From positions 62,001-126,000 of the forward strand of contig JALHMX010000005.1 of assembly GCA_022843825.1 (NCBI GenBank): DNA of 64,000 nt, written 5' to 3'. Under the pieces are notes generated by a model. The model was not told the origin of the DNA. It worked only from the letters and a program-made list of their open reading frames with translations, and did no database searches. Within the stretch, counting starts at the first letter, position 1. The number at the start of each line of letters is the position of its first letter. Source of the stretch: Pseudobdellovibrionaceae bacterium (lineage in GTDB: Bacteria; Bdellovibrionota; Bdellovibrionia; Bdellovibrionales; Bdellovibrionaceae). A program made the position numbers and the translations under genes. Positions 27,631 through 36,320 of the stretch are shown here, piece after piece.

Positions 27631-28530
27631 ATGATCTTACTTCTCTTCGGATTTATAGGCGTAACTGTTTTGTATATGATTCGATTTTCGGTTATCGGCG
27701 AACTCACTCCGATAAGCCTATTTTTGCATCATAAATGTCTGTCCTACATGCCAGCTGAATCTCTGTACATTAATTCCTTATCTGCTCTGGTTTGCGGAAA
27801 AAACTTCGACTTACTTCAAGATTCATATCTCTATACATCAACAGGTCTAATACATCTTTTTGTAGTTTCAGGTTCTCATCTCATTGTCTTAAAAAAAATT
27901 ATAGATCAAATTTCTAAGTTATTTTTAAAAAAAGAATTTTATATAATTACGATTCTTTTGCTTTTAGTTTACTGTGCCGTTTGCCAGTTTAACGCTCCTG
28001 TTGTTCGAAGTTTTTGCTTTCTGAGCTTGTCAACATTACTGACAAAGATCCACCGAAAGTGGAGTCCTGATTATATATTATTCTTAGCTGGGTTCCTGGC
28101 ACTATCTTTAAAACCTGAATGGCTTTCTTCTTTAAGTTTGCAAATGAGTTGGCTGGCTTCTTTAGTGCTATTAATTTATCAACAAAAACTGCAAAATCAT
28201 CCGCTTATAGTTCGACAAACAATATTCTATTTTATATTTTCGTTTTGTTTCCGCATTTTAGGATTTCCCGCCTTCAGCATCACCATTCTGTGTGTGCTTA
28301 TGACGCCAATTCTTGAGTACATTTTATTTCCGTTGGCATTGCTAACAACATTGCTTCATGTAATAGAGCCTATCTTTGCTTTTGTTATATCAACATTGAA
28401 TTATATTTTATCGCTACTCAGCTACAGCTCGACGCCATCTGAACATGATATGGAGTCCGTTAAGTATCTTAACTGGGTCACGATTTTCAGTTGCCACTAT
28501 CTGTTGTTTTTTAAAAAAGAGAAAACTTAA
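27631..28530 (+). CDS. ComEC/Rec2 competence-domain membrane protein (N-terminal half of a split ComEC)
   Basis: TGLIHLFVVSGSHLIVLKKIID competence-domain signature; polytopic membrane protein. Confidence 0.8.
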   Translation: MILLLFGFIGVTVLYMIRFSVIGELTPISLFLHHKCLSYMPAESLYINSLSALVCGKNFDLLQDSYLYTSTGLIHLFVVSGSHLIVLKKIIDQISKLFLKKEFYIITILLLLVYCAVCQFNAPVVRSFCFLSLSTLLTKIHRKWSPDYILFLAGFLALSLKPEWLSSLSLQMSWLASLVLLIYQQKLQNHPLIVRQTIFYFIFSFCFRILGFPAFSITILCVLMTPILEYILFPLALLTTLLHVIEPIFAFVISTLNYILSLLSYSSTPSEHDMESVKYLNWVTIFSCHYLLFFKKEKT

Positions 28531-29270
28531 TGTCTTATCCTACTTATATTTTTATTGTTTGTTTTCTAAAAATAAATATTGCCGTCGCGCCTGTGTATAA
28601 AAATTATTTTATAGTGCGCAATGTGGGACAGGGTCAGTGGACTACCTATGTCACTTACGATAGTTGTTTACATTTTGATTTCGGAGGTGAGTTTTTTATG
28701 TCAAAATACTTAAACTCTAAATTTAGAAAGCAATGTGGCTATAAAACAAATGTTCTTTTTTTGACACATGCTGATTGGGATCACTATTCATTCCTTCCCC
28801 TTATTCTAAGAAGTTCTAAAAAAGTCTGCTGGGGTTATCGATCTATTGATGCTCTGAAACCCGATTTAGAAAATCTAAATATCCCCTTCTGTAGCAAACA
28901 AGAGCTCTTCAATCAAGGGCGAGCAAAAATACTATTTTATAGCCCACAAGAAAAAAATAAAAATACACGATCAATCGTCTTGCTGTTTCAAAGTTTTTTA
29001 ATTCCAGGAGACTCACCCATCCAAATGGAAAAAAAATGGATAGACCGACTATCTGCTGAGCAAACCAAGTATTTAATTTTAGGACATCACGGAAGTCGAA
29101 GCAGCACGGGGAACAAGCTTTTAAGTCACTTAAAAAAAATGGACCTAGCCATTGTCAGCGCTAGATCCAAAAAATATAATCATCCTCATCCGGCGACAGT
29201 CTCAAGGCTTAAAAGGTCGCGAATTCCTTTACTTAAAACTGAAGACTGGGGTGATATAACTATCTACTAA
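28530..29270 (+). CDS. ComEC-type metallo-beta-lactamase domain protein (C-terminal half of a split ComEC)
   Basis: VRNVGQGQWTTY...LHFDFGG...FLTHADWDHYSFLPLI...YLILGHHGSRSSTGNKLL...SARSKKYNHPHPATVSRL. Confidence 0.85.
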   Translation: MSYPTYIFIVCFLKINIAVAPVYKNYFIVRNVGQGQWTTYVTYDSCLHFDFGGEFFMSKYLNSKFRKQCGYKTNVLFLTHADWDHYSFLPLILRSSKKVCWGYRSIDALKPDLENLNIPFCSKQELFNQGRAKILFYSPQEKNKNTRSIVLLFQSFLIPGDSPIQMEKKWIDRLSAEQTKYLILGHHGSRSSTGNKLLSHLKKMDLAIVSARSKKYNHPHPATVSRLKRSRIPLLKTEDWGDITIY

Positions 29271-31034
29271 TTACTTAACAAAACCTTCACCACAGTTCTC
29301 TTTAGGAGTTCCTTGTGCAGTTAAATTATTGAGATATAGAATCGAGTCCATTTCACCCTCAAGTGTTGTTCCTAGGCGGTCTAAGGCGCGCTCATGATCC
29401 GCCAAACTGTTAGTTCCTAAGCTGGTTTCATCAAACCAATTCAGATTAAAATTAACAGGCTTTTTATCTGCAACAGATTTTGAACTGTACCAGTTTTCTT
29501 TTTTGATTTTAAAAATAAACATCCAATGCTTACATCCGTCGGCCGGTGATCCCACTGTAACGCCCGGTTGAGCAAAGGTATCAGAAGCTTTCATTTCAAA
29601 ACTACTGGCTACAAAAGGGGAATAGGCCTGATCTCGAACTTGACCTGCTAAATCATCATACTTACTAGCATACCAATCCGTATGACGATTCACGGAATCG
29701 CGCAAACGCTCAAAAACCATTTCTGTATTGGCTGTCGGGGTTCCCAAACCTGTAATTATATTGAATCCCATGTCTGGACGCTTCCAGTAGTCAATGCGAT
29801 TATCCATCCACTCAGGCATCATTTTCTGAGCAATTTCACTTGATACAACATAATCAAAGGCCGTGTTTAATTTATCATAATTTGGTCTAACGGTTACGTC
29901 ATCTTTAGCATTTGAAAAAATGGAATCTGCCTCTTTACTGCGGAACATCCAAACCGCCAATCCCGCGCGCGCGGCCATCCAACGATGCGCAAACGGCGCC
30001 TTAGCATAGTCTTCGCAAATATTCTGGTTAGTAAATTTATCCTTAGAGGCCTCTTTCAATACCAGGACTCCGTTTTTACGTTCACAATTTCCACTGATTG
30101 TCGATGAGTACCATATCATGCCATTAGATTCAGGAGAGTTAGGCTTAAAATTAGAGTCACCACGAAAGTCATAGTAATAGGCCAGATCCCCTTGAGAGCA
30201 CTTGCTGGTAAATTTCTTATAATCGTCCATGTATTTATCGTAATCCGGCAAAGTTGTTTTCTTAGGGATTATATAGTTATGAAAAATGTATTTAGTTTCA
30301 CAAATTGTATAAGGCTCTACCGGCGCTGGTTCTGAGTATTTTCCCATGACTATATTTGCATCTGCCGAGGCTTTAAGATTAGCCTCTTTCATTCGATAAA
30401 TAGCGTAGGAAAGATTAATATAGGCGCTATATGATTCCGCTGTCATTTTAGACCATACATGATCCTTTATCCTCATTCTTCTCTGTGCCTTAACAGGCAA
30501 CTTATTTATACTGTTGACCCAGTTAATTTTTTCTCTGATTAAAGTTGGGCGATCTCGGAATTCACCACACAACATCGTTAAAAAAGCGTGAGCATTTTTC
30601 TTACCGTTTTTAACTTCTTTCGAAGACGGAAAGTTTTTAGGCGGATCAACCAGCTCGCGCGTAAGCTTACCCGAAGTTTCATCTGTTTTTCTAAGCTCAT
30701 ACATACTTAATGGACCTGCATAGAAATAAAAACTTTGCGGATGTACCATAGCCAACCTTCTGGCCGCGCTGGTTACTTCCCGATTGCTGTAGTTGGGCAT
30801 CGGAATTTCTGTTGATACGCGATCACCACCACAATAGGTGCTCCAAATTTTATTCATCAGTTTTTCATCAGCGTACACAGGTGGTAACGCACTTTGAACA
30901 ATTTCTGTATCCGCTGGCCAGCGATCGATCTTAATAGGGTTATTTTTGTTATTTGCCTGGGGAGCTATCGGTTTTTGAGTACACGCGGCCAAGATTATAG
31001 TTGATAATGTAATAGCGATTTTTAATGTTTTCAT
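29271..31034 (-). CDS. Large lipoprotein of unknown function
   Basis: Lipobox ILAAC; 587 aa; no family recognised. Confidence 0.6.
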   Translation of the reverse strand: MKTLKIAITLSTIILAACTQKPIAPQANNKNNPIKIDRWPADTEIVQSALPPVYADEKLMNKIWSTYCGGDRVSTEIPMPNYSNREVTSAARRLAMVHPQSFYFYAGPLSMYELRKTDETSGKLTRELVDPPKNFPSSKEVKNGKKNAHAFLTMLCGEFRDRPTLIREKINWVNSINKLPVKAQRRMRIKDHVWSKMTAESYSAYINLSYAIYRMKEANLKASADANIVMGKYSEPAPVEPYTICETKYIFHNYIIPKKTTLPDYDKYMDDYKKFTSKCSQGDLAYYYDFRGDSNFKPNSPESNGMIWYSSTISGNCERKNGVLVLKEASKDKFTNQNICEDYAKAPFAHRWMAARAGLAVWMFRSKEADSIFSNAKDDVTVRPNYDKLNTAFDYVVSSEIAQKMMPEWMDNRIDYWKRPDMGFNIITGLGTPTANTEMVFERLRDSVNRHTDWYASKYDDLAGQVRDQAYSPFVASSFEMKASDTFAQPGVTVGSPADGCKHWMFIFKIKKENWYSSKSVADKKPVNFNLNWFDETSLGTNSLADHERALDRLGTTLEGEMDSILYLNNLTAQGTPKENCGEGFVK

Positions 31035-31046
31035 TTTTTCCTCTTA

Positions 31047-32495
31047 TTATTTAATTGCTGGAAGATCTTCTAAATATTGTCCTACGACTGGCTGTTTCGG
31101 CAAGTCCCGGGGACTTGTTGCCATTCTATCCCACATCATTTTGTATTGATCCGCGTATGCGTTAACCACTTCCGGAATCATAATGTAATATGAGTTCTCC
31201 CAATTTTTATTGAATCCCGCCCCTGTCAAATTAGCTGAGCCGGTAAATACCGCTGTAAATTTCTTATATCTATCAGCGAAAATTAAAAACTTGCTATGGT
31301 GTAACTGTCTTTCTTCACTATTCGTTTCCATATATTTTTCTTGAGCACCACGTTTAACTAATGATTGGATATGGTTGTATTCAGCCGCCATAACCTCTGA
31401 TTCATAATTAGGGTCATTGGCTACGTAGAAGGTGCCTGCATCTGCCACTATTCGCAGGTCAGGCCTTTTTCCAAAAGACATTCTATTTTTTAAAGCGTTA
31501 ATCATTTTATTATAAAAGAACCGATGAGCAGCAATCCATATACGAGATGCATTTTTAATTCCTGGAAATTTCCCATCTCCTTCAATCATATATTCAGAGG
31601 CTGTTTTAACACCGTATTTTTCACCGTACTCAGGCTCACCTTCACCCGGTATAAAAAATACTTTAATGTCTTTTTCTACAGGTGCTTTAATCTGAGCTCG
31701 GCAAGATTTTATATAATCGATATATGCTTGACGACTACGTCCTGCAGTTTCTGACCATTCAGCATTCATGGCACATAAGTGAGCCTGAGCGAAGTACGAT
31801 TGAGAGTTCGTAGTTATAAAGTTCCAGTTCTCATGATGGATAATAACACCTGAACTCATGTTTCCCGAACTAAATACGATTTTAAATTCCCCTGGAGTGT
31901 TAGGATTAATAATAAAAAATTTATTATGAGCGTAACCTAATTCATTCTCGCCACCGCGCAACTTCATCTCGACGTTACCTGGTTTACACGCAATAAGCTC
32001 TTGCGCACGCGTTTGATCCGTTCCACTATCAAGTACAAACTTAACTTTTATATTTCTTTTAACCATCGCATCACACAACGCGTCTTTAACCGCCCGATTG
32101 CTGAATGATAGATAAGTAAAAAATACTTCTCTTGTTTGTGGATGATTAATCCACTCAATAAGTCTGTACTGAGGACTTAATGGATTTTCGCTTGATCGCT
32201 TGAAGTCATGTTGATTTCTGCAATAAACATTCTCAGGTTTTTGCTTTAATGTCTTTCCTCTTTGACTTAAAACTTTGGTTTTATATTTATAAGGACCGCA
32301 TATAGGATTGGTAAACAGCACTTCATATTTGTAAGGTGTATACTGCGTTAAGTAATCATAAGATTGTGATTTAAGATAACTTTCAGGCTGCGCTTGCGCA
32401 ACATCTCGTTGACCTACTGAATTATGTTGAGGTGTCTGACAACCAAAAACAAAAAACAAAAGCAAAATACCAAGCATATTCGAAACAACACGCAT
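31047..32495 (-). CDS. Phospholipase D-like lipoprotein
   Basis: Lipobox VFGC; YAHNKFFIIN...SSGNMSSG and LHHSKFLIFAD...FTGSANLTGAGFN. Confidence 0.8.
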   Translation of the reverse strand: MRVVSNMLGILLLFFVFGCQTPQHNSVGQRDVAQAQPESYLKSQSYDYLTQYTPYKYEVLFTNPICGPYKYKTKVLSQRGKTLKQKPENVYCRNQHDFKRSSENPLSPQYRLIEWINHPQTREVFFTYLSFSNRAVKDALCDAMVKRNIKVKFVLDSGTDQTRAQELIACKPGNVEMKLRGGENELGYAHNKFFIINPNTPGEFKIVFSSGNMSSGVIIHHENWNFITTNSQSYFAQAHLCAMNAEWSETAGRSRQAYIDYIKSCRAQIKAPVEKDIKVFFIPGEGEPEYGEKYGVKTASEYMIEGDGKFPGIKNASRIWIAAHRFFYNKMINALKNRMSFGKRPDLRIVADAGTFYVANDPNYESEVMAAEYNHIQSLVKRGAQEKYMETNSEERQLHHSKFLIFADRYKKFTAVFTGSANLTGAGFNKNWENSYYIMIPEVVNAYADQYKMMWDRMATSPRDLPKQPVVGQYLEDLPAIK

Positions 32496-32626: not shown

Positions 32627-34744
32627 TTATTGTTTTAGAATCGTGGTACTTAATGACCAAATTCTTGAATCGAATTCTTCGTTATAATCTGTCATAACAG
32701 CTAAAGACTTAGTTTTATTACTAATAGTGATTACATTTTCATCATTTAAGTCATTGCCACTGCCTGACCAGTTTTGCGATCCAATTATGATCACTTCAGG
32801 GTGGTATGACCCGTCAGCCATTTTACGAGTCAAAGTTGCAGCCTTATAATGATTTAAACCTTTCCAATCATTTTTTCGAACTTCTATAAGACCTTTAATT
32901 TGTTCTGCTTGTTGATATGGATTCGGCTCTAATAAACTGGCGGTGGTACTTTTAATCCATGATCCTGTTCCGGCACCCGATAAAGAATCCACTGCGATTC
33001 TCACTTCAACACCACGAGCTGCTGCCGATTGTAATGCTCGCACTAATTCATATCCAGCAGAGCCAAACATACTAATACGAATGATGTCACCCTTGCGAGC
33101 CGAATACAGCATCGGAAGAATCACGCGATGTTCAGCATCGTCTGTTGGAGAAAAGTGTACTCGTACATGCGTTCCGTCGTCGAAAGTAAAATATCTTTTT
33201 GTATTAGGTCGTTTTTTAGTATGAAATGCGCCCGTTATTAATGATTCCAACTGCCCGTTGTTTGATGGGCCATACATTTCATTAAATTCGTCTTGGAAGG
33301 CCTGTGCAATCAAAGTGTTTTTTACATAGACTGACATATTCGCATTTTCTTCACTACCCATACATGTTCTAGAAATGTTAGCTGTTCCTGTCCATACTGA
33401 TTTGCTTTGATCATTTTTTTCAAAGACTACAAATTTGTTATGCATAATTCCTGAATATGGGTATTCGATACGACCCATAGATTCAGCATCAGTACGTGAA
33501 TTAGAGTTAATGACTCTTAATAAATCCTGCGTAGCTTGATATTGATAAGCCATGCGGGTCAAAGTTGACTCAACATCATTCGATTTTTTATTAATTGCTA
33601 TCCAAAGAATATCTGCCAAAATAGACTTTGTATTTCCAGTAAAGCTTTTATCAAACTTAATCATCTTTGTAGACACATGCTCTTTAATCTTTGACTGAGA
33701 CATCCCTTGCGTTGCTGCTTCTACATCTTTCAAAAATTGAACGGCCCAATAAGGAGCACCAAAAGCCCAGTTCGCAGGGTTCTTAGGGTTAACGTAGGAA
33801 AGATCTAACAACCCCGGCATATGAATGACTTTATAAGTGCCATCTTCCTGTCTAATAAGATCATAATCACGAATTAAATCATTAGGACGAGTCGCATCGC
33901 TGACGTCAACGACAGCTTTTACGGGAATCTTTTCAATTACTCTTTTTTGAACGGCTTGATACACCGAAGACATTGAGTCTGAAATATCATCAATACCATA
34001 CAGCGCCATCGACATAGATTTTACCTCAGGTGAACTGATTTTTTCTGCCAACTTCTTAGCAACCGTCACCTCTGGAATAATAAAAGGCTTTTGCTTCTTG
34101 ATATGATTATCATACCAGCCCTTAGTAAAATAATATTCGATATCTAACTTGTCGCCGGCACGAACAGGTTTACCTAAGTCATTGGCTGTATCTACTCGTA
34201 ATATTTTTCTTGGCGCAATAGCCGGAGCATCTTCTAAACACTGTAAGTCTTCAAGACTCGTGCACAGAATAAATTGAGTTGAAGAGTCCAATAAACGCGA
34301 AACATCTTTTTTATAGTGGGCTTGGCTAGGGCTTAGTTTAATATACGAAAGATACTTTGCAATTTTCAAGATTTGTTCATCAGAAGCCTCTTTAAGTTGA
34401 CCCTTTAAATAAGCTACATTTTCTTCAATCCTTTTCTTATTTTCTTCCTTGGTTGTAAACTGACTGTGTAGATCGCCGACCAACGACTCAGGCTGGTCAA
34501 CAATTGTATCTTCAATTACAGGTGCATCGACTTCAGCATCAATATCCGGTGGCTGAGTTTTACAACTAGGATCGTTCAGCGCACAGATATTTTCATTAAT
34601 TGTGATTTCTTGTTTTTGATCAACAGCTTGCTTTTTTAAGGCTTCAGCATCGCGCTGACTACAGCCAGAAGTAAGTGCAACGCTAAACAAAACTGATAGT
34701 AGAGACGTTGAAAAAGCCAAGCGTGTTTTTGTAATGAAATGCAT
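32627..34744 (-). CDS. Phospholipase D-like lipoprotein (two PLD repeats)
   Basis: Lipobox LTSGC; GIMHNKFVVFEKN...WTGTANIS and NHYKAATLT...IIGSQNWSGSG. Confidence 0.8.
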   Translation of the reverse strand: MHFITKTRLAFSTSLLSVLFSVALTSGCSQRDAEALKKQAVDQKQEITINENICALNDPSCKTQPPDIDAEVDAPVIEDTIVDQPESLVGDLHSQFTTKEENKKRIEENVAYLKGQLKEASDEQILKIAKYLSYIKLSPSQAHYKKDVSRLLDSSTQFILCTSLEDLQCLEDAPAIAPRKILRVDTANDLGKPVRAGDKLDIEYYFTKGWYDNHIKKQKPFIIPEVTVAKKLAEKISSPEVKSMSMALYGIDDISDSMSSVYQAVQKRVIEKIPVKAVVDVSDATRPNDLIRDYDLIRQEDGTYKVIHMPGLLDLSYVNPKNPANWAFGAPYWAVQFLKDVEAATQGMSQSKIKEHVSTKMIKFDKSFTGNTKSILADILWIAINKKSNDVESTLTRMAYQYQATQDLLRVINSNSRTDAESMGRIEYPYSGIMHNKFVVFEKNDQSKSVWTGTANISRTCMGSEENANMSVYVKNTLIAQAFQDEFNEMYGPSNNGQLESLITGAFHTKKRPNTKRYFTFDDGTHVRVHFSPTDDAEHRVILPMLYSARKGDIIRISMFGSAGYELVRALQSAAARGVEVRIAVDSLSGAGTGSWIKSTTASLLEPNPYQQAEQIKGLIEVRKNDWKGLNHYKAATLTRKMADGSYHPEVIIIGSQNWSGSGNDLNDENVITISNKTKSLAVMTDYNEEFDSRIWSLSTTILKQ

Positions 34745-34858: not shown

Positions 34859-35536
34859 TCAATGATTTTGACGGGTGCGTATTTCGTTGCGAACTTTCAT
34901 GTAAATTTCATGATATTTATAAGCCGGCGGTACATCAGCGGCTTGAACATGATCGGCAATAAATTTCAAGTCACCTGTTGATAACAACAAATTTTTGACT
35001 TCTGCATTTTGCATAACCTTAAGTTTCGACGCTTTATAAATAATGTTGTAATGTCTTTTCGCACCGGAGCCTTTGTATTCGATTTTTCTTCCGCGATATG
35101 TAACCCATTCAATGCCTAATTTTTTCATTAAGGCATTAGCCAGATCACCGGCTTTTTTGGCTTCAAAGCCCTCCATCGCATAAACTTGCTGTCGGGTGTA
35201 GGGCCATACGACGCTTGGGTCTTTTAAACGTAAGTCATTAGAATTTTCCGGATACTTCATACCCTGCCACAATCCTTCTGTTGATTTGTAGTGAATCCCA
35301 TCCATCACAAAGCCTGCATTACCTAAGTTTGAAAATATACCCAATTCATTTCTTTTCGATAAAACGACTTCACCCTTGCAACGGTTAGCGTGTTGTGGAG
35401 CGATCTCCCAACTTTTAATTTCTTCTTGGGGGATAGCTTGCCACCATATGTCTGGATATTTATCCGCGATAGGACAAGCAGACACATTTGTCGAAGCTAA
35501 AAACACTACGGCAGTTAAAGCAAAAAAGAAATTCAT
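34859..35536 (-). CDS. Secreted NADAR-like (YbiA/DUF1768-type) protein
   Basis: Start refined to MNFFFALTAVVFLASTNVSA; IFSNLGNAGFVMDGIHYKSTEGLWQGMKYP and SKLKVMQNAEVKNLLLSTGDLKFIADH match the NADAR pattern (FSN..., TVEHYFQAQKF, NPELREKLLATGD). Confidence 0.65.
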   Translation of the reverse strand: MNFFFALTAVVFLASTNVSACPIADKYPDIWWQAIPQEEIKSWEIAPQHANRCKGEVVLSKRNELGIFSNLGNAGFVMDGIHYKSTEGLWQGMKYPENSNDLRLKDPSVVWPYTRQQVYAMEGFEAKKAGDLANALMKKLGIEWVTYRGRKIEYKGSGAKRHYNIIYKASKLKVMQNAEVKNLLLSTGDLKFIADHVQAADVPPAYKYHEIYMKVRNEIRTRQNH

Positions 35537-35552
35537 ACGCGATTCTCCATTG

Positions 35553-36320
35553 TTAAAATACAAAACCATTATCTAATAAAATTTTCTTTATTGGTGTAAA
35601 CGTAATATATTGCCCAAAATTCACAATAGCCTCTGTACGTGTTCCATCTGAATTAAACTCTCCATCTCCAGATAAATGCATGCCAACCATATGTCCATTT
35701 TGCGCGTTCAGTATGGCCGCTCCACTACTTCCCACTTCAGTATCACAAACATGATGTATTGAGTTCGGTCGATTGTCTATTGGTCTAACTTTTTTTAACC
35801 GACAATACTGTGACCACGATAATGGAGCTTCATTAGGATATGAGAAAATAGTAAACCACTGAGACGTCCGCGGTTTGTTATACCAATCAACGACTATAAA
35901 CTCCTTAGGTGGATTTGAAATTTTCATTATTGCAAAGTCCAGATCTAGGTCATCGTTTTTTTGCATAGCGATAACCTCAACACATTTGGATATCCTAGGG
36001 TTTGCCCCATCAGCAGTTTGTTTCCAAGTTATAGTCTCATCGATACAAGGTTGATTTAATTTTAGGTCGCCATCAAAAAAAGTCTGCCAAAAACAATGTC
36101 CAGCAGTCAAAGCATACCCCTGCCCGATATGAGTTATCGTACACCCTGAACTCAGGTTGCCTATGGCAGGCATTAAACTTTTAAAGCGTCTCGGGATATT
36201 AGATAAGTCGTCTTTAACGAGGACTAAGTCATTTTCACCGATAATCCTGAAAAACGAATGAGCCTGCGTGCTGATACCGCAAGCCAGAGAAATCGATAGA
36301 ATAATAAACAAAATTTTCAC
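35553..36320 (-). CDS. Secreted trypsin-like serine protease
   Basis: Signal peptide; YALTAGHCFW (H), DLDFAIMKI (D), EVGSSGAAILNAQNGHMVGMH (S). Confidence 0.8.
   Translation of the reverse strand: MKILFIILSISLACGISTQAHSFFRIIGENDLVLVKDDLSNIPRRFKSLMPAIGNLSSGCTITHIGQGYALTAGHCFWQTFFDGDLKLNQPCIDETITWKQTADGANPRISKCVEVIAMQKNDDLDLDFAIMKISNPPKEFIVVDWYNKPRTSQWFTIFSYPNEAPLSWSQYCRLKKVRPIDNRPNSIHHVCDTEVGSSGAAILNAQNGHMVGMHLSGDGEFNSDGTRTEAIVNFGQYITFTPIKKILLDNGFVF

Follow-up and report, generated by a model that had tools for sequence, protein, structure and literature searches.

In the literature that we found, NADAR proteins are cytosolic, serving as antitoxins, as phage proteins or in the hydrolysis of riboflavin intermediates. 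The catalytic residues are E43, K50 and E125 in the P. nicotianae NADAR and E88, K95 and D171 in E. coli C7, and the third of them varies between groups, being Glu in YbiA, Asp in BC4488 and His in the phage groups (PMC11543638, PMC11125620). In the P. nicotianae structure (8bau), R79 and the D130/W133 motif touch the pyrophosphate of ADP-ribose (PMC11543638), and guanosine-ADPr is hydrolysed in vitro by both phage gp30.3 and YbiA (PMC11125620, PMC11833690). The openly accessible literature yielded nothing relevant on exported NADAR/YbiA proteins or on those of Bdellovibrio.

The window, which is the whole stretch of 64,000 nucleotides analysed here from a Pseudobdellovibrionaceae bacterium with a genome near Pseudobdellovibrio, contains at 34859–35536 on the reverse strand a gene for a predicted exported NADAR-superfamily protein of 225 aa, belonging to a gp30.3-like subfamily with an Asp-His pair ('DH'). 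The reading frame is judged to be real; the motifs quoted in the preliminary description are found in its product, and a GGAG ribosome-binding site (35545–35548, reverse strand) is situated 8 nt 5' of the ATG at 35536. Unlike the gene of phage gp30.3, it is chromosomal, present as a single copy in the genome and adjoined by rlmE/FtsJ and conserved genes of the genus. A pattern scan of a collection of genome contigs returned Bdellovibrio-type relatives only, such patterns reaching only close relatives. No close relative of the protein was found in IMG/VR, phages or plasmids, and the idea that the gene came from a phage or plasmid was rejected, the viral and plasmid relatives being distant gp30.3 proteins only.

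The NADAR-like domain named in the preliminary description is weakly visible to single-sequence profiles and strongly so to family profiles, hhalign and the fold search. With the window protein alone, Pfam returns Phage_30_3 (PF08010) at 2.8e-7 and NADAR (PF08719) at 1e-3, both under gathering, with 31.1 bits vs a curated cut-off of 36 and 20.0 bits vs 35.1, respectively; TIGR02464 matches at 1.2e-4, likewise under its curated cut-off, such cut-offs being a convention and not a biological criterion. A single-sequence search of the PDB gave noise only. About 94 distinct relatives were collected, and among the 81 aligned for the family profile Phage_30_3 is matched by 80 and NADAR by 62. In hhalign, the subfamily aligns with T4-like phage gp30.3 at 99.6% (E 1e-24) and with YbiA-type NADARs at 98.6% (E 7e-16). 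The AF2 model of the window protein has a mean pLDDT of 93.7, and its credible Foldseek matches in the PDB are three NADAR/YbiA structures only: 2b3w (probability 1.00, E 8e-5, the sole match below 0.001), 8bau (E 0.024, probability 0.99) and 8bat (E 0.036, probability 0.98), the next match having a probability of 0.03. In BFVD, a gp30.3-like protein from Acinetobacter phage Henu6 ranks first, with NADAR-named viral proteins prominent below it. Because the profile matches of the relatives, hhalign and the predicted fold with its Foldseek matches agree, membership of the NADAR superfamily is secure at the level of sequence and model comparison, despite the missed gathering scores.

By sequence comparison, T4-like phage gp30.3 is the protein nearest to the window's NADAR. 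It gives the best profile match and shares SN-x(4)F-x(2)DG, S-x-EG-x(2)Q, AK, QN and the His of the last strand. However, the phage proteins are cytosolic, with about 150–166 aa and without a signal sequence, and they possess neither the Asp before the His nor the N-terminal WW...WE...SKR region of the window's subfamily. One IMG/VR contig carries a phage cluster (L101:492-5699) of a macrodomain-like ORF, a gp30.3-like NADAR and, by eye, a DUF4326-like ORF, resembling the ADP-ribose clusters of PMC9503650. In the case of E. coli YbiA (PF08719; TIGR02464), the fold, E-x6-K and an acid-His pair in the last strand are common to both, whereas YbiA is cytosolic, has a Glu (E125) where all members of the window's subfamily have Asp195, and keeps the NDxYWGDGG and GR motifs that are missing from the subfamily; identity over the structural alignment is 16%. 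The DarT1-associated NADAR antitoxins (BC4488; G. lovleyi, E. coli C7) resemble the window's protein in fold, as represented by 8bat, and BC4488 NADARs also use Asp, not Glu, as the third catalytic residue, but they are cytosolic and encoded beside DarT1. DarT is absent from the window's genome and was found in 6/144 in the phylum, and a role as a DarT1 antitoxin is unlikely, DarT being absent from the genome.

Glu87 (35276–35278, reverse strand) corresponds to the catalytic, ribose-binding Glu (E43 in P. nicotianae, E88 in E. coli C7, E48 in YbiA), and Lys94 (35255–35257, reverse strand) corresponds to K50 and K95 of the first two; their E+7=K spacing matches that in PMC11543638. Among the roughly 94 relatives, E87 is invariant and K94 is 93% conserved, which bears out the expectation that orthologues retain the catalytic Glu and Lys. 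In the last strand, Asp195-His196 (34949–34954, reverse strand) has an Asp where YbiA has E125, then a His as in YbiA and gp30.3; when the families are aligned jointly, D195 is placed at YbiA E125 and H196 at both YbiA H126 and the phage His, and within the subfamily the two are 100% and 99% conserved, respectively. E87, D195, K173, R115, T187, Y208 and R216 are invariant across relatives with 38–63% identity to the window protein, and this invariance argues for selection on the active site. The equivalents of R79 and of the D130/W133 motif are not conserved in the subfamily, so the identity of the substrate cannot be assumed. The D130/W133 motif is missing from phage gp30.3 too, which still hydrolyses guanosine-ADPr, and since the catalytic residues are kept, the sequence makes hydrolase activity of the window's NADAR likely.

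The preliminary description also proposed an N-terminal signal peptide, and such a peptide is predicted. The signal sequence MNFFFALTAVVFLASTNVSA (35477–35536, reverse strand) is directly followed by Cys21; it begins with MNFFF, has no basic n-region, and ends in ...NVSA|C, a VSAC site suiting signal peptidase I or a possible lipobox alike. A lipobox occurs in about a third of the relatives, among them every near one within the genus, where close examples read IVGC, LCGC, LSSC, TLGC and LAGC. In a simple test of hydrophobicity and lipobox motif, 91 of the 94 relatives exceed the threshold for a hydrophobic, signal-like N-terminus, compared with 0/15 cytosolic NADAR controls (phage proteins, E. 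coli YbiA and four Bdellovibrionota outliers) and 0/39 housekeeping ORFs; the start codons of the relatives were picked partly by hydrophobicity, which favours this result, and most have one plausible ATG. The window protein thus bears a predicted cleavable signal or lipobox, as would an exported protein, and we infer its location to be the periplasm, the surface or the prey. Lack of profile support, of catalytic residues or of export had been named as grounds for abandoning the preliminary description; none was encountered, export here being a sequence prediction.

The Asp-His type was found in 88 of 291 Bdellovibrionota genomes, with 38–63% identity, and in the searches made here the subfamily appears only in Bdellovibrionota. 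A PF08719 search of Bdellovibrionota gives 32 matches over the cut-off, all YbiA-type NADARs, and 28 of them have a signal sequence or lipobox at the N-terminus, as in L106 (MKALSIFVFLLLSSC) and L104 (MTKLMLVMAFIISLSC). These exported YbiA-type proteins share phylum, superfamily and predicted export with the window's NADAR, but they form a separate lineage and carry Glu-His, not Asp-His. A 455-aa exported protein (L103, G113:C107) has its NADAR domain C-terminal to about 290 aa without assignment. The four outliers without a signal are L116, L138, L139 and L140; two of these (L139:1875-3483 in G145 and L140:886-2570 in G024) belong to a conserved two-gene unit in which a PRTase-like protein (PADLOC PRTase_III-A) accompanies a signal-less NADAR (PADLOC PDC-M42C-like), and which is probably a defence module.

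The exported Asp-His proteins form a clade (support 99) in a 63-sequence tree; together with phage gp30.3, this clade is split from YbiA and the cytosolic forms (support 100). The exported YbiA-type clade (support 93) joins E. coli YbiA (support 100), and cytosolic NADARs flank the two exported clades on either side. On the simplest reading of this topology of two separate exported clades with cytosolic members on both sides, export would have arisen at least twice among Bdellovibrionota NADARs. Within 24 genomes of the genus Bdellovibrio, nine have the Asp-His type only, 12 the YbiA type only, none both and three neither; the hypergeometric probability of zero overlap is 1.7e-4, a value that ignores shared ancestry. 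The idea that the YbiA type had replaced the Asp-His type in place within this genus was rejected, the flanks being unrelated. By our own count, an exported NADAR of either type is present in 107 of the 291 genomes, and because about two thirds of the sampled genomes have neither, it is not essential for predation generally.

The gene immediately 5' of NADAR encodes an exported trypsin-like protease (35553–36320, reverse strand; Trypsin_2 3.3e-10; cluster c4), and this protease–NADAR pair is conserved in the window's genus; at L006:3392-4987 the protease lies upstream of NADAR in a tandem duplicate. Directly downstream, a PLD-domain (NucT-like) lipoprotein (32627–34744, reverse strand; PLDc_2 1e-23, NucT 1.9e-8) is also present 3' of NADAR in the nearest relative, L002. 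It is followed by a second PLD-domain lipoprotein, assigned by profile matches (31047–32495, reverse strand), to which the next ORF of L002 is similar in order and size, and by further lipoprotein-like ORFs in both loci. A 587-aa lipoprotein without a family match (29271–31034, reverse strand) lies 3' of both PLD lipoproteins, and L002 has an ORF at the equivalent place. At 28530–29270 on the forward strand is a stand-alone exported metallo-beta-lactamase, which resembles the C-terminal portion of ComEC (TIGR00361 4.6e-15) and does not include the channel part.

Elsewhere in the phylum, in a different family, an exported endonuclease/exonuclease/phosphatase (EEP) gene is located directly 5' of NADAR at 10 loci, and an exported PF01663 type I phosphodiesterase/nucleotide pyrophosphatase (ENPP-type) directly 3' of it at seven; the order EEP–NADAR–PF01663 is found at four loci (L028, L029, L032 and L053). 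Furthermore, an exported S1/P1 nuclease lies 5' of NADAR in L018. In L055, the gene directly 5' of NADAR (L055:4667-5524, reverse strand) encodes a BtpA-family protein whose N-terminus is hydrophobic and signal-like. The neighbour survey counted 50 families among 65 neighbours, with most loci free of nucleotide enzymes and the neighbours varying by lineage; the link of NADAR genes with nucleotide and nucleic-acid enzymes is suggestive and not general.

On balance, and with slightly better than even confidence from sequence and model, we regard the window's protein as an extracytoplasmic NADAR, probably an active ribosyl N-glycosidase or ADP-ribosyl hydrolase using E-K-(D)H for catalysis, which helps to degrade the nucleic acids and nucleotides of the prey. 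The enzyme, located in the periplasm or held by a lipid anchor, would act outside the predator cytoplasm together with other exported hydrolases that degrade these prey molecules. Exported nucleases would release nucleotides from prey nucleic acid, NADAR would cut an N-ribosyl bond, for example in ADP-ribosyl-guanine, an NAD/ADP-ribose-derived compound or a ribosylamino compound, and nucleotide pyrophosphatases would process the ADP-ribose-type product for uptake.

It is unlikely that the enzyme instead scavenges without any link to nucleic-acid ADP-ribosylation, splitting ribosylamino-pyrimidine phosphates or compounds of the NAD/NMN type that the prey releases into base and ribose phosphate for uptake. 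The TIGR02464 match and the hydrolysis of riboflavin intermediates by YbiA, as cited within PMC11543638, are consistent with such a role, and the basic residues K61, R62, K94, R103 and R115, invariant or nearly so in the subfamily, would suit a phosphorylated ligand. However, RibH and NadA are both encoded in the window's genome, so both cofactors are probably self-made, and export parts the enzyme from the cell's own riboflavin intermediates; since these lie across the membrane and RibH is present, a role on them is unlikely.

Quite unlikely in our judgement, though a serious alternative, is counter-defence or self-protection, in which the enzyme would remove ADP-ribose set by ADP-ribosyltransferases of prey or competitors, or destroy ADP-ribose-derived signals, during attack. 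NADAR antitoxins reverse guanosine ADP-ribosylation (PMC11543638), phage NADARs have been proposed to act against host NAD/ADPr immunity (PMC9503650), with the window's subfamily nearest to the phage proteins, and the patchy distribution of two alternating types fits a conflict gene. Against this, known ADPr-DNA targets are cytosolic whereas Sec export reaches the periplasm or surface, and the rarity of DarT in the phylum and its absence from this genome also weigh against it. The recurrent nucleotide-enzyme neighbours are, moreover, degradative, and we favour breakdown over counter-defence because the operon neighbours in related lineages are an exported nuclease and an ENPP-type nucleotide pyrophosphatase; as a counterpoint, the conserved neighbour in the window's own genus is a protease. 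That the fold is catalytically dead or repurposed, with a binding or structural role for the exported protein, is very improbable, for although K94 is substituted in about 7% of relatives and some ADPr contacts are lost, the seven residues from E87 to R216 listed above stay invariant, as would be expected under selection on an active site.

With its Asp-His pair, the subfamily adds a variant of the catalytic residues that stands between those of gp30.3, YbiA and BC4488. The alternation of two exported lineages in Bdellovibrio suggests selection for NADAR chemistry outside the cell. More broadly, and tentatively, at somewhat less than even confidence, Bdellovibrionota predators may twice have turned a cytosolic NADAR, phage-like in one case and YbiA-like in the other, into an enzyme that is exported and often carries a lipid anchor; these would be the first described extracytoplasmic NADARs, and during predation they would remove ribose or ADP-ribose from molecules derived from the nucleic acids or NAD of the prey, for nutrition or counter-defence. 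Through exported NADARs, the processing of prey NAD/ADP-ribose and nucleic acids by predators becomes accessible to genetic tests.
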